DNA of 64,000 nucleotides from Salinimicrobium tongyeongense. Its GTDB lineage: Bacteria > Bacteroidota > Bacteroidia > Flavobacteriales > Flavobacteriaceae. Made by a program: the position numbers and the translations under genes. Shown in pieces: positions 5,767-27,733 of this stretch (within the stretch, counting starts at the first letter, position 1; every line of letters begins with the position of its first letter). The stretch lies in NCBI RefSeq assembly GCF_026109735.1, contig NZ_CP069620.1:1302001-1366000 (forward strand), read 5' to 3'. The notes beneath the pieces are model-generated. The model made no database searches, was not told where the DNA came from, and saw nothing but the letters and a program-made list of their open reading frames with translations.

Positions 5767-8532
5767 ATGAGACTTCTTTTGATTACTGCCGCAGTACTTC
5801 TTTCCTTCACAGGATTGCTGGCACAGGAAAACCACCCCACCGGAAGCATTGCCGGAAAATTGACCGATAAAGAAATGCAGGGCGAGCCCCTGCCATTTGC
5901 CAATGTGCTGGTGAAAGGCACAGGTACAGGCGCCACCACGAATGTGAACGGACTCTTTGAAATCGAAAACCTGGAACCCGGAAATTACACCATTGCCTTC
6001 AGCTTTATTGGATACGAACAGCTTGAGGTCTCCAATGTTAAAGTCGAATCGGGTAAAGTAACAGAGATAAACACCGAACTTGGGACCACTGCCTCTTCCC
6101 TTGATGAAGTTGTTATCTCTACGGTCTCAAGAGCCGATTCTGAGGTGGCATTGCTTTTAGAGCAGAAGAATGCCATTGCGATAAAACAGGCCATAGGCTC
6201 TGAAGAACTTGACAGGAAAGGGATCAATACCGTAGAACAGGGACTTTCAAAGATTTCGGGGATCAGTATGGCAGAAGACCGCGGGATTTTTGTGAGAGGC
6301 CTCGATGACCGCTACAACTTCCTGATGATGAACGGACTTCCCGTGGCATCATCTGACCCCGATTTCAAGATTATTCCCCTCAGCTATATCGCCACGAATA
6401 TTGTGAGCTACATTGATGTTTACAAGACCTTCAGCCCTTCGCTCTATCAGGATTTTGCGGGCGCAACCTTTAATGTCAATACCATTACGGCACCTTCAAA
6501 GCCTGTTACCACCCTGAACATTGGCGTAAACTACAACACCAACGCCACCTTTGAAGATTACCGTATGGATAAAAGCAGTGAACTCGAATATCTGGGTTAT
6601 ACCGGCAGCAGCAGGAAATTGCCCTCTTCAGCTTCACAATCTTCCAGCCCCTTTTCCACTTCCTGGACTCCCGAGACAATAACTGCCCCGCTGGCAACTA
6701 CTTTTGGGATCACGCACGGGCAAAGGCTGCTGAGTGACAACGAACAAACCCTGGGCCTTTACCTGGGGGTGAACTACCGCAATTCTTACGAAAAGAACAA
6801 GGGGGTAGAACGCACATTAAATTCTGAAGGCACCGCAGGCCAGGATTTTACCACCACAACCTACAATTTCTCCACCCGAAAATCGGCTTTACTGGCACTG
6901 GATTACCACAGCTTTGATAAACTGAAATTGAACTTCAATACCATCTATCTTCAGAATACTTCCAATTTTATAAGGGAAGCCTATGGAAGGAATGACGGAT
7001 TTACCCAGCTTAACAACAAAGATTTCTTTATCCGCGATATTCGGTACACACAAAATGACATGCTCACTTTCCAGCTCCTGGGAGATCTGGAATGGGACAA
7101 CAAAAAACATCAACTGCATTTTGGCGGCTCTGCAGGCCTGGGCAACAACAATATCCCCGACCGCAGGCTGCTGCGCGCAGCAGGAACCGGCGAAGATGCC
7201 GAGTATATTACCACAAACGGCATCAACCCCTTCAGGTTTTACCAGGAACTGGAAAATGTTAGTTACAATTCACGCCTGGAGTACGAGTTGGGAATTCAGA
7301 GAAAAGAAGACAACACCTTCTCCACAAGGATCAAGGCAGGCCATAATTTCGACGGAATAAATTACGACTTTTTCACCCGCACCATCACGGCTCAGGTAAA
7401 TTCGGCTGACCTGCCAAACCTTAACACCAATGACCCTGAAGCTTTCTTTCAACAAGGTTTTGCCGAAGGATTCCTTCAGTATTCGGGAAACTTTAGCCCC
7501 ACTTCACCTGACATTCAGGTAGATCAATTTATACATGCAGGATATTTCATCTTTTTGAAAGAATGGGACGACATTTTACTTGATATAGGCGTGCGGGCAG
7601 AATATGCACCCGGGGAGATCATTTATAAAAAGCCTCTCGACACAAAATTCAGCAGGATTATTTATAAACCATTCGATCTTAGCCCTTCGCTTAACCTGAA
7701 GTACAACCTAAACGCAACCTCCAACCTAAGGCTGGCTTCGTCTGTCACCACTACCCGCCCAAGAATGAGGGAGATCCTGCCAAGCGTTTACCAGGATGGC
7801 GACGGCAACCAGGTAATTGGAAACCCCGATCTTTTAAATTCCCGCAATTACAACCTTGACCTCAAATACGAGCTTTTCCCTACCAGCCAAGAAGTATTCG
7901 CCATTACCGTTTTTGCCAAGTACCTTGACGATCCCATTGAGCGGCTGGCCCGGGCAACATCGGTAGGCTACAGGACCTATTTTGACAACTTTGATGAAGC
8001 TGTTCTCTACGGAATAGAGGCCGAAGCGAGGTTCAAGGCAGGAAGCCTCTTCAAAAATGCCATTTTTGACAGGTTATCTGTAGGCTTTAACGGAATTCTG
8101 ATGGACTCTAAAGCAACTGCCGAAGAAAGCAATCCGCGTTTCGCAGCAGTGACCCATAAAAATCGAAAGTTACAGGGAGCTTCAAACTGGGGGATCAACG
8201 CCGATCTGCTTTACCAGATTTTTAAACAGGGCAACACAGAGTCTTCCCTAAACCTTATTTACAACAGCTTCGGAAAAAGAATTTATGCCGTAGGAGTTGA
8301 AGGAGCCGATGAGATTTACGAAAAACCAATAAATCAGTTCGACCTGGTATGGGCCACGCAATTCAACAAAAACTGGGGGCTCAAATTAACTGCGAGAAAT
8401 CTGCTCCATGAAGAAACAAAGTTCTTTCAGGATCCAACCCGTGAGATAAGATTTCCGGAGAAATTCAGCAACACCATAGAATCATTTGATACCGGCACCA
8501 CATACGGGGCCTCACTAACCTATAAATTTTAA
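5767..8532 (+). CDS. TonB-dependent outer-membrane receptor (putative Pho-type)
   Basis: A 921-residue outer-membrane transporter. I choose the ATG at 5767 because it gives a clean signal peptide (LLLITAAVLLSFTGLLAQ); an in-frame TTG at 5743 would add eight residues in front. A carboxypeptidase-regulatory-like domain (about 20-110, with NVLVKGTGTGATTNVNG) precedes the plug, where FVRGLDDRYN and the following strands match the receptor plug. The rest is beta-barrel ending in an aromatic residue (YKF). It needs TonB energy to import a substrate not visible from sequence. It is divergent from phoB/phoR-like genes and followed after 29 bases by a beta-helix lipoprotein, a plausible surface-binding partner in place of a SusD protein. 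Confidence 0.88.
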   Translation: MRLLLITAAVLLSFTGLLAQENHPTGSIAGKLTDKEMQGEPLPFANVLVKGTGTGATTNVNGLFEIENLEPGNYTIAFSFIGYEQLEVSNVKVESGKVTEINTELGTTASSLDEVVISTVSRADSEVALLLEQKNAIAIKQAIGSEELDRKGINTVEQGLSKISGISMAEDRGIFVRGLDDRYNFLMMNGLPVASSDPDFKIIPLSYIATNIVSYIDVYKTFSPSLYQDFAGATFNVNTITAPSKPVTTLNIGVNYNTNATFEDYRMDKSSELEYLGYTGSSRKLPSSASQSSSPFSTSWTPETITAPLATTFGITHGQRLLSDNEQTLGLYLGVNYRNSYEKNKGVERTLNSEGTAGQDFTTTTYNFSTRKSALLALDYHSFDKLKLNFNTIYLQNTSNFIREAYGRNDGFTQLNNKDFFIRDIRYTQNDMLTFQLLGDLEWDNKKHQLHFGGSAGLGNNNIPDRRLLRAAGTGEDAEYITTNGINPFRFYQELENVSYNSRLEYELGIQRKEDNTFSTRIKAGHNFDGINYDFFTRTITAQVNSADLPNLNTNDPEAFFQQGFAEGFLQYSGNFSPTSPDIQVDQFIHAGYFIFLKEWDDILLDIGVRAEYAPGEIIYKKPLDTKFSRIIYKPFDLSPSLNLKYNLNATSNLRLASSVTTTRPRMREILPSVYQDGDGNQVIGNPDLLNSRNYNLDLKYELFPTSQEVFAITVFAKYLDDPIERLARATSVGYRTYFDNFDEAVLYGIEAEARFKAGSLFKNAIFDRLSVGFNGILMDSKATAEESNPRFAAVTHKNRKLQGASNWGINADLLYQIFKQGNTESSLNLIYNSFGKRIYAVGVEGADEIYEKPINQFDLVWATQFNKNWGLKLTARNLLHEETKFFQDPTREIRFPEKFSNTIESFDTGTTYGASLTYKF
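8051..8069. repeat. Dispersed palindrome TCAAAAATGNCATTTTTGA (intragenic copy)
   Basis: A perfect 19-base palindrome inside the TonB receptor reading frame, coding for part of LFKNAIFDRL. The same core recurs in other genes and in terminator-like intergenic hairpins of this window. Confidence 0.7.
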
Positions 8533-26334: not shown

Positions 26335-27213
26335 ATGAGTTCATCTTTTGAAAAATATCAAAAAAGACGTCTTATTTCCTCTTATTTTTCAGTCGTGATC
26401 AGTATCGCCCTGGTCCTTTTTTTACTCGGCTTATTGGGGCTTTTAGTGCTCAACACCAAAAAAATAGCCGATCATTTCAAGGAGCAGATCGCCCTTACCA
26501 TTTACCTGAAAGATACTGCAAAAGAAGTAGAGATCACCCAGCTCAACAAGACCCTGGCCCTGGCCGAGTATACCAAATCTACCACTTATGTGACCAAAGA
26601 AGAAGCAGCCGAGGCCCACAGCAAGGAAATTGGCGAAGATTTCATGGAGTTTCTGGGTTACAATCCGCTGCAAAATTCTATTGATGTTTATTTTAAGGCA
26701 GATTATATTACCTCTGGCGAAATAGACCAGATTGCCGAAGAATTAACTGCAAAGAACTTTGTAGATGAAGTGGTTTATGACAAGCCTTTAATTTCCCTTT
26801 TGAATGAGAATGTCACCAAGATCAGTTTTTGGGTACTGGCCATAAGTGCCATTTTCACTTTTATCGCCGTGTTGTTGATCAACAGTTCCATAAGGCTTTC
26901 GGTATATTCAAAAAGGTTTATTATCAAGACCATGCAAATGGTTGGCGCTACAAAAAGGTTTATTAGAAGGCCATTTATTCTGAAGAGCGTCAAACTGGGC
27001 ATGATAGGAGCGTTTATTGCACTAATAGGAATGGCCATTGTACTGTATTATATGGACAAAAGCTTCCCTGAACTTGAACTCCTAAGCGATATGAGCATTT
27101 TGGCCGCCCTGTTCTTCGGAATATTCCTCATGGGCGCGATAATCACCTGGCTAAGTACCTTTTTTGCCACCCAGCGCTTCCTGAATTTAAAGACCGATGA
27201 GTTGTATTATTAA
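26335..27213 (+). CDS. ftsX: Cell-division permease-like protein FtsX
   Basis: A 292-residue inner-membrane protein that partners the ATPase FtsE and relays division signals to periplasmic cell-wall hydrolases. It has an N-terminal membrane segment (about 17-40), a large periplasmic domain and three C-terminal membrane segments, with the FtsX-like signature KRFIIKTMQMVGATKRFIRRPF in the fourth quarter. The ATG at 26335 (MSSSFEKYQKRRLIS) is chosen because this is the conserved flavobacterial N-terminus; upstream residues are unconserved. No ftsE lies in the window. Its last codons overlap a 15-bp sequence that is duplicated at 27719-27733. Confidence 0.93.
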   Translation: MSSSFEKYQKRRLISSYFSVVISIALVLFLLGLLGLLVLNTKKIADHFKEQIALTIYLKDTAKEVEITQLNKTLALAEYTKSTTYVTKEEAAEAHSKEIGEDFMEFLGYNPLQNSIDVYFKADYITSGEIDQIAEELTAKNFVDEVVYDKPLISLLNENVTKISFWVLAISAIFTFIAVLLINSSIRLSVYSKRFIIKTMQMVGATKRFIRRPFILKSVKLGMIGAFIALIGMAIVLYYMDKSFPELELLSDMSILAALFFGIFLMGAIITWLSTFFATQRFLNLKTDELYY

Positions 27214-27214
27214 A
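27200..27214. repeat. 15-bp direct repeat, left copy (target-site-like)
   Basis: AGTTGTATTATTAAA at the 3' end of ftsX, including its stop codon, is repeated exactly at 27719-27733 on the far side of the GxxExxY cassette. Such a duplication is what a target-site duplication or a recombinational insertion would leave. Confidence 0.75.
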
Positions 27215-27718
27215 TCTTAGGCCACAGATACACAGATAAAAATGGGGGATTTCCTTTATAAAGATCTAACATATCAAATAATTGGAGTCCTGTTCGATGT
27301 GCACAATGAATTAGGTGGTGGCTTCCTTGAAGTAGTTTATTCAGATGCAGTAGAATACGAATTGAAGATGCGGAATATTCCTTATGAAAGGGAGAAGAAA
27401 TATCAGGTTCATTATAAAGACACAATTCTACCTCATCATTTCTACGCCGATTTTGTAGTCTTCGGAAAGATAATTCTGGAGTTAAAATCTGCTACCCATT
27501 TGCACGAATCCCATATGGCTCAATGCCTGAACTATTTAAAAATTTCTAAACTTAAGTTAGCAATTTTAGCCAATTTTGAAGGCGACAAATTAATACATCA
27601 TAGAATTATCCTCTGAGAAAAAAGAAAAGGAGGTAAGGCAGAAGAGATTTTTTCTCCCATTTTAAGAGGAACACTAAAAAGATATCCGTGTATCTGTGGC
27701 AAACTTTTTAAAAGGAAA
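27215..27718. mobile_element. GxxExxY cassette with inverted repeats, putative mobile unit
   Basis: A 504-base segment between the two 15-bp direct repeats. Near its ends are 17-base inverted repeats: GCCACAGATACACAGAT (27221-27237) and its complement at 27684-27700, identical at 16 of 17 positions. It contains one gene and an A/T-flanked hairpin (27615-27623 with 27648-27656) just after it. It splits ftsX from DUF3098, which are usually adjacent in flavobacteria as far as I recall. No transposase is present, so it would have to be mobilised by another factor. Confidence 0.6.
27242..27616 (+). CDS. GxxExxY protein (PD-(D/E)XK nuclease-like)
   Basis: A 124-residue protein of the GxxExxY family (PDDEXK_3-type fold). 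The motif GFLEVVY is at 27-33 with Glu30, followed by Asp70 in YADFVV, Glu80-Leu-Lys82 in ILELKS and Gln94 in AQCLNYL. That is a complete set of nuclease-core residues, so the protein should be catalytically competent if it is a nuclease. Function is unknown. It is the only gene in a 0.5-kb cassette with inverted repeats and flanking direct repeats that interrupts the ftsX-DUF3098-uppP-truB row. The start context ATG-G5-ATT is good and there is no signal peptide. Confidence 0.9.
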   Translation: MGDFLYKDLTYQIIGVLFDVHNELGGGFLEVVYSDAVEYELKMRNIPYEREKKYQVHYKDTILPHHFYADFVVFGKIILELKSATHLHESHMAQCLNYLKISKLKLAILANFEGDKLIHHRIIL

Positions 27719-27733
27719 AGTTGTATTATTAAA
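27719..27733. repeat. 15-bp direct repeat, right copy
   Basis: Exact second copy of AGTTGTATTATTAAA, the sequence at the end of ftsX. Downstream it reads into the DUF3098 leader, so the pre-insertion junction can be reconstructed as one copy. Confidence 0.75.

Follow-up and report, generated by a model that had tools for sequence, protein, structure and literature searches.

GxxExxY nuclease genes between inverted arrays of lineage-specific seven-base words: candidate one-gene elements resembling REP/RAYT pairs

What kind of unit is the 504-base insert with a single gene that splits ftsX from the DUF3098 gene in Salinimicrobium tongyeongense? The stretch analysed, hereafter the window, comprises 64,000 nucleotides of contig NZ_CP069620.1 (positions 1,302,001 to 1,366,000). 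A preliminary description of the window had read the insert as a one-gene cassette bounded by an exact 15-bp direct repeat, with inverted repeats near its ends and a complete PD-(D/E)XK residue set in its product, and had suggested a non-autonomous mobile unit or a nuclease-driven cassette with a target-site-like duplication. The layout is indeed that of a single 124-aa GxxExxY ORF between two arms, and both sets of repeats are present in the sequence, the arms forming an inverted pair of 18 nt that matches at 17 of 18 positions:

27200 to 27214, no strand: direct repeat, left copy, 15 bp, forming the 3' end of ftsX; present as a single copy in the clean sites of G005, G008 and G010
27221 to 27238, plus strand: left arm, GCCACAGATACACAGATA, with two CACAGAT words (27223-27229 and 27231-27237)
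27242 to 27616, plus strand: GxxExxY gene, 124 aa, predicted PD-(D/E)XK nuclease fold, Thr10 in the first helix
27627 to 27633, plus strand: AAGGAGG run, judged incidental
27683 to 27700, minus strand: right arm, inverted, reading GCCACAGATACACGGATA on the minus strand, with the words CACAGAT and CACGGAT
27719 to 27733, no strand: direct repeat, right copy, 15 bp; a degraded copy occurs in G004 and G007

An inverted match of equal quality arises in 0.05% of 2000 Markov resamplings of the region. A direct repeat of at least 15 arises in none of 2000, and a further exact 15-mer pair within ftsX (26909/26951) counsels caution in reading much into the 15-mer alone. The AAGGAGG run, earlier described as Shine-Dalgarno-like, lies where it was reported and appears incidental; we reject such a role and assign it no other. 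The orthologous element of G006 lacks the run in that form.

The window protein is a clear member of TIGR04256 (E 1.1e-38, 132.1 bits against a curated cut-off of 35) and of PF13366, PDDEXK_3 (E 1.3e-35, 122.7 bits against a curated cut-off of 22) by profile match. Across 72 aligned sequences E30, D70, E80 and K82 are invariant and Q94 nearly so, which bears out the residue set claimed for it, and by this set the nuclease is predicted to be catalytically complete. An AlphaFold2 model computed from the same 72 sequences (mean pLDDT 95.5, pTM 0.88) has its first helix at residues 7-24, with residue 10 inside it, and its nearest solved folds are 4ic1 (SSO0001, E 7.5e-5), which we take to be a Cas4, the Cas4 Pcal_0546, ACE1 and lambda exonuclease; a search of the PDB by sequence found no relative (best E 0.15). 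Residues and modelled core fold together place the protein in the PD-(D/E)XK nuclease superfamily. No HUH family is among its Pfam or NCBIfam matches, no Cas4-type cysteine set is among the conserved columns of the 72-sequence alignment, and the window cassette contains no known transposase (DDE, HUH, serine or tyrosine), its 124-aa ORF being the GxxExxY protein. As the cassette carries a conserved nuclease gene, "non-autonomous" is not the best name for it.

The arms recur throughout the family. We took the best local inverted match between the 220 nt before and the 220 nt after each gene, using no word pattern and a cut-off score of 12, for a first set of 132 genes with full flanks (139 genes found in 136 loci), with mechanical ORFs of the same loci as controls. 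Inverted arms reach this score at 118 of the 132 GxxExxY genes, as against 16 among the 464 control ORFs and 8.2% for mismatched arm pairs, and at 66/82 and then 59/84 genes fetched after the rule was seen, in samples that lean to well-scoring members (the best 80 of 508 were kept, and a part was taken from each of three further best-first listings, 60 places from two of these); 14/132, 16/82 and 25/84 genes show no clear inverted match. By source, arms accompany 22 of 25 genes from the genus and 69 of 77 from named genomes, the latter covering most sampled phyla: Bacteroidota (42/46), Planctomycetota (9/9), Chloroflexota (5/5), Ignavibacteriota (4/5), Verrucomicrobiota (2/4), Pseudomonadota (2/2) and further groups with one each. 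Next to the gene, matches in direct orientation are likewise in excess (42/132 versus 31/464 control ORFs at score 12), which we explain by palindromes standing on both sides. The window's genome itself has four GxxExxY genes, each flanked by an inverted sequence of a different word, with arm scores of 13.0 (L001), 12.5 (L003), 15.5 (L004) and 10.0 (L002), so that three of the four reach the cut-off. The expectation that the window's inverted repeats would recur by other GxxExxY genes is therefore right in substance and wrong as to the same sequence; because each clade has its own word, a search for that sequence as such would miss the pattern.

An arm consists of two to four tandem units with the seven-base core C-[AG]-C-N-[AG]-A-N, spaced mostly 8-10 bases apart (8 in 107 cases, 9 in 169, 10 in 133, 11 in 37 and 12 in 12); the words were called by the regular expression C-R-C-N-R-A-D at spacings of 8-12, which partly imposes their form. 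The word differs by protein clade, with CACGAAT, CACAGAG and CGCAAAG among others and CACAGAT in the window. Inward arrays occur in 86/133 upstream and 82/133 downstream flanks versus 7 and 8 for the reversed-sequence control, and their density is 3.3 per kb beside the gene versus 0.13 per kb elsewhere (more than 400 nt away), a 26-fold difference. The median distance between arm and gene is 28 nt on the side of the start and 10 nt on that of the stop, and the two arms of one element are more alike than same-word arms of other elements (median 17 versus 11.5).

Changes in the word go along with changes in the protein. Word base 7 undergoes 9 changes on a tree of 129 proteins versus 46.8 (minimum 38) for shuffled labels, and bases 2, 4 and 5 undergo 21, 23 and 21 versus 37.5, 40.0 and 43.2, respectively. 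A search of all alignment columns singles out residue 10 for word base 5: 41 of the 42 training genes with Thr10 have G there, other residues go mostly with A, just 1 of 68 A-words has Thr10, and Ser10 occurs with both bases (42 A, 19 G). Since the column was chosen post hoc in the training set, the rule was applied to 59 further genes with a word that had played no part in finding it; here all 20 of the 20 Thr10 genes have G at base 5, as do 111 of their 114 units, and neither Ser10 (13 A, 11 G) nor Ala10 (11 A, 3 G) decides the base. Among phylogenetically independent pairs differing at Thr10, on average 12.9 of 12.9 agree in the training set (7.5 for the next column), 7.4 of 7.4 in the held-out genes alone and 20.9 of 20.9 in the pooled data (of 35 pairs), and the residue-10 column ranks above all others in each of the three sets. 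The covariation could reflect co-inheritance of a gene with its flanks, and the independent-pair test speaks against co-inheritance alone. At the level of sequence, recognition of the arms by the element's own protein appears well supported.

The same relationship can be followed at a single site in another genus, g2, which is probably Flavobacterium because named Flavobacterium loci, L086, L087 and L099 among them, share its arm text. All 150 genomes searched match the flank query for this site, and the 60 loci taken comprise 36 that bear the gene, 15 without it, 8 with other DNA and one without a flank. Tabulating 34 of the 36 gene-bearing loci (L450 and L486 were dropped by the motif filter), we find that the outermost word has G at base 5 in 26/29 cases for Thr10 occupants with CACAGAT, A in 23/24 for Tyr10 occupants with CACGAAT and A in 9/11 for Asn10 occupants, which have mainly CACAAAT. 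Gene and both arms have switched together in place. Thirteen of the 15 gene-less loci fetched lack arms and words, and two keep a remnant of the right arm. These two (L467 and L468) also contain a short reading frame, alike in both.

Within the window's genus, we compared 12 genomes, one per species (G000 to G011, G000 being that of the window). The ftsX-DUF3098 junction bears the gene in G000 and G006, is gene-less with traces of arms in six (G001, G002, G003, G004, G007 and G011) and is clean, with the 15-mer region present once, in G005, G008 and G010, G009 being unclassified; the empty junction with a single copy that the preliminary description had told us to seek in relatives is thereby found. 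At a second site (L001), the gene lies in one orientation in G000 and G006 and in the opposite one in G001, G003, G004 and G010; aligned from arm to arm, the G000 cassette is 69% identical to the reverse complement of that of G001, versus 56.5% in the forward sense. Instead of inverting, the cassette may here have been inserted independently in the two orientations. In G004 and G010 the same site holds a CACGAAG element of another subclade that adjoins what seems to be an old CGCAAAG outer arm—apparently, one element replaced another and the outer arm was left behind. At the L034 site five genomes have the gene and several others retain part of the right arm. Within the genus no very recent transposition came to light, and its elements look old, mostly occupying old sites, inherited vertically and decaying. 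Taken together, such comparative traces support mobility of the elements.

A second copy of the 15-mer occurs in G000, in degraded form in G004 and G007, and in none of the other arm-bearing junctions. In the clean junction of G010, the end of ftsX runs directly into the window sequence to the right of the second 15-mer, as would be expected if the insertion had duplicated it. The 15-bp duplication in the window probably arose at the original insertion, as the target duplication left by a staggered cut. As a general hallmark, target-site duplication is rejected: a direct match of the flanks outside the arms exceeds chance (score of at least 12) in 7 of 112 elements, with varying lengths and some derived from words, and most elements have no flank duplication. 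The target-site-like duplication of the preliminary description accordingly stands for the exact repeat at this site and fails as a property of the elements at large; its interpretation as a whole is partly supported and its observation of the repeats is confirmed. Direct repeats of at least 15 nt do occur in 40 of 213 cases (versus 0.09% of mismatched pairs), and those inspected are mostly duplicated outer palindromes derived from the element; as flank duplications proper we take those of the window and of L138. The latter (L138:5991-6357, from Ramlibacter) separates two reading frames at what appears to be a junction of overlapping genes and is flanked on each side by an imperfect direct repeat of about 25 bp; the start of the downstream frame resembles that of an anthranilate synthase component.

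Related palindromes also occur without a gene. The pattern CCACGAATNCACGAAT, with at most one mismatch, has 185 occurrences in the 12 genus genomes (0 to 44 each) versus 4 for the reversed pattern, and among the 26 array pairs of the 80 named loci some overlap and others adjoin the genes. L072 contains an internally deleted copy in which nothing but the start of a GxxExxY protein is still encoded, and two near-identical palindromes enclose the gene in L117, L126 and L141. In the phylum sample, 91 of the 194 genomes with the gene contain pairs of CACAGAG words, versus 11 of the 198 without it, an excess that, with the elements' own arms counted, is an association and no proof of spread. In the genus, CACGAAT pairs are more numerous where a genome has a CACGAAT-type gene (one-sided p 0.028, 5 versus 5 genomes). 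The word of a solo palindrome is not always that of the nearest gene, the solos of L081 having CACGGAT and its gene CACGAAT. Two palindromes of this locus (L081:3865-3938 and 7057-7131) have arms that match within each palindrome, spacer and outer bases included, and differ between the two; the arms here look as if homogenised within a copy. L425:262-1654, in G004, is a tandem array of 11.3 copies of a 124-bp unit, each with one CCACGAATNCACGAAT-like arm, and resembles clustered REP arrays. The 11 genomes with CACAGAG pairs and no detectable GxxExxY gene include G366, with 16 pairs.

Of the 392 genomes in the phylum sample, 194 contain TIGR04256, and the protein has matches on 6 of 72,556 plasmids and in none of 50,697 phage records. 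Two of the six plasmid-borne relatives pass the arm test (Bernardetia and Bacteroides finegoldii) and that of Treponema falls just short (11.0); those of Gemmatirosa, Fusobacteria and Persicobacter fail it, with words of the expected type near the first two of these. In the openly licensed part of PubMed Central there is almost nothing on GxxExxY, TIGR04256 or PF13366, with a passing mention in PMC8934634; neither PDDEXK_3 nor six of the word strings were found there, and a search of it for interspersed repeats paired with XK nucleases led nowhere. Our observations point to a minimal mobile element of a kind not found described in that literature.

The closest parallel is the REP/RAYT system (TnpA-REP, REPtrons). 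In both, a single chromosomal nuclease gene stands beside inverted short palindromic repeats, many palindromes lack a gene, and, as in REPtrons, the dispersed palindromes of GxxExxY are related to the repeats flanking the gene. PMC8266576 describes REP enzyme and repeat as co-evolving, and PMC8049555 describes RAYTs as single-copy, vertically inherited and not observed on plasmids; GxxExxY, too, is almost absent from plasmids and phages. The enzymes, however, are PD-(D/E)XK in one case and HUH (Y1) in the other, the GxxExxY unit is a tandem seven-base word 8-12 bases apart with no GTAG-plus-hairpin signature found as its defining unit, and several GxxExxY genes with different words share one genome. 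GxxExxY elements hence work like a REP/RAYT pair yet are none, their enzyme being unrelated. The best fold matches of the model tie the protein to the Cas4/lambda-exonuclease branch. Cas4 itself is characterised by a CRISPR neighbourhood and a four-cysteine iron-sulphur site, whereas the GxxExxY protein has 124 residues, stands alone between its own repeats with ftsX and DUF3098 as neighbours, and is not a CRISPR component. Terminal inverted repeats, a single gene, internally deleted derivatives and the 15-bp duplication at the window site recall insertion sequences and MITEs, but GxxExxY elements have no known transposase, their arms are word arrays, they occur in low copy at old sites, and the fixed-length target-site duplication at each copy that typifies classical insertion sequences was not seen among the 112 elements. 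Homing endonuclease cassettes likewise consist of one nuclease gene that a fixed site may have or lack; in contrast, the GxxExxY words would lie in the cassette's own arms and not only in the empty site, and the empty g2 sites are mostly wordless.

We consider it likely that the cassette is a minimal one-gene element whose own ends carry the words that its nuclease reads, resembling REP/RAYT and unrelated to it. At the level of sequence, the gene stands between inverted word arms, the word is specific to the lineage, and Thr10 predicts one of its bases; cutting and transposition are what we infer from this arrangement. The protein would use its first helix to bind the words in its own two ends, several copies lining up at intervals of roughly one helical turn, and would then cut there; repair or strand joining could subsequently insert, invert, replace or lose the cassette. 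The gene-less palindromes would be decayed or internally deleted derivatives that may still serve as substrates. On a more inclusive reading our judgement is evenly balanced: widespread word-reading GxxExxY nucleases would have founded their own one-gene elements, the first helix reading a seven-base word about once per helical turn in the inverted arms and Thr10 specifying the G at base 5; helix and arms would be re-specified together, giving rise repeatedly to new words, even at one site; and cutting would cause cassettes to insert with staggered duplications of variable length, to invert and to replace one another, and gene-less palindromes to spread, as an independent PD-(D/E)XK counterpart of REP/RAYT in Bacteroidota, Planctomycetota, Chloroflexota, Verrucomicrobiota and others. 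If so, a common hypothetical gene gains a function and a large set of dispersed repeats an owner; there would be a residue-to-base code, one residue for one base, with dozens of natural variants and directly testable, and a second, independent origin of nuclease-plus-palindrome partnerships.

The arms' closeness to the start and stop of the gene, the mostly old and syntenic sites, and the near-absence from plasmids and phages would suit a domesticated function—either a regulator with the word arrays as operators for its own gene and the neighbours, or a recombination or repair nuclease, the element being immobile now. We think this rather unlikely, given that the nuclease residues are conserved, that the gene is often lost with its arms left, and that internally deleted copies exist alongside the opposite orientations and the replacement at the L001 site. 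A passive role is harder still to credit: were the palindromes an independent repeat family, arising for instance by replication slippage, with genes carried between them by homologous recombination, one could account for palindromes that occur alone or in tandem arrays such as that of L425 (11.3 copies of 124 bp) and for the cassettes between near-identical palindromes in L117, L126 and L141. However, words follow protein clades, and base 5 can be predicted from residue 10 both across independent pairs and in the held-out genes; a passenger is not expected to co-vary residue by base in this way, and we regard hitch-hiking as improbable. Least probable is a defence-like or addiction module in which the nuclease attacks invaders carrying the word and the arms mark or regulate self: a PD-(D/E)XK nuclease with a Cas4-like fold and a patchy presence (194/392 genomes) would fit it, but there is no partner gene, and the words recognised are the arms and solos within the host genome itself.

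Returning to the window's genome, the sequence CCACAGATACACAGAT occurs with at most three mismatches in the fetched loci of G000 only at the window element and at direct repeats at 1941437/1941597, and genome-wide recurrence of the window's inverted repeat is rejected on this basis. The locus in question (L014:1300-1780, C1 near 1941437), with no GxxExxY gene in the part shown, consists of directly repeated units, each about 160 bp long and containing CCACAGATGCACAGAT and CCACAAATCCACGAAT.
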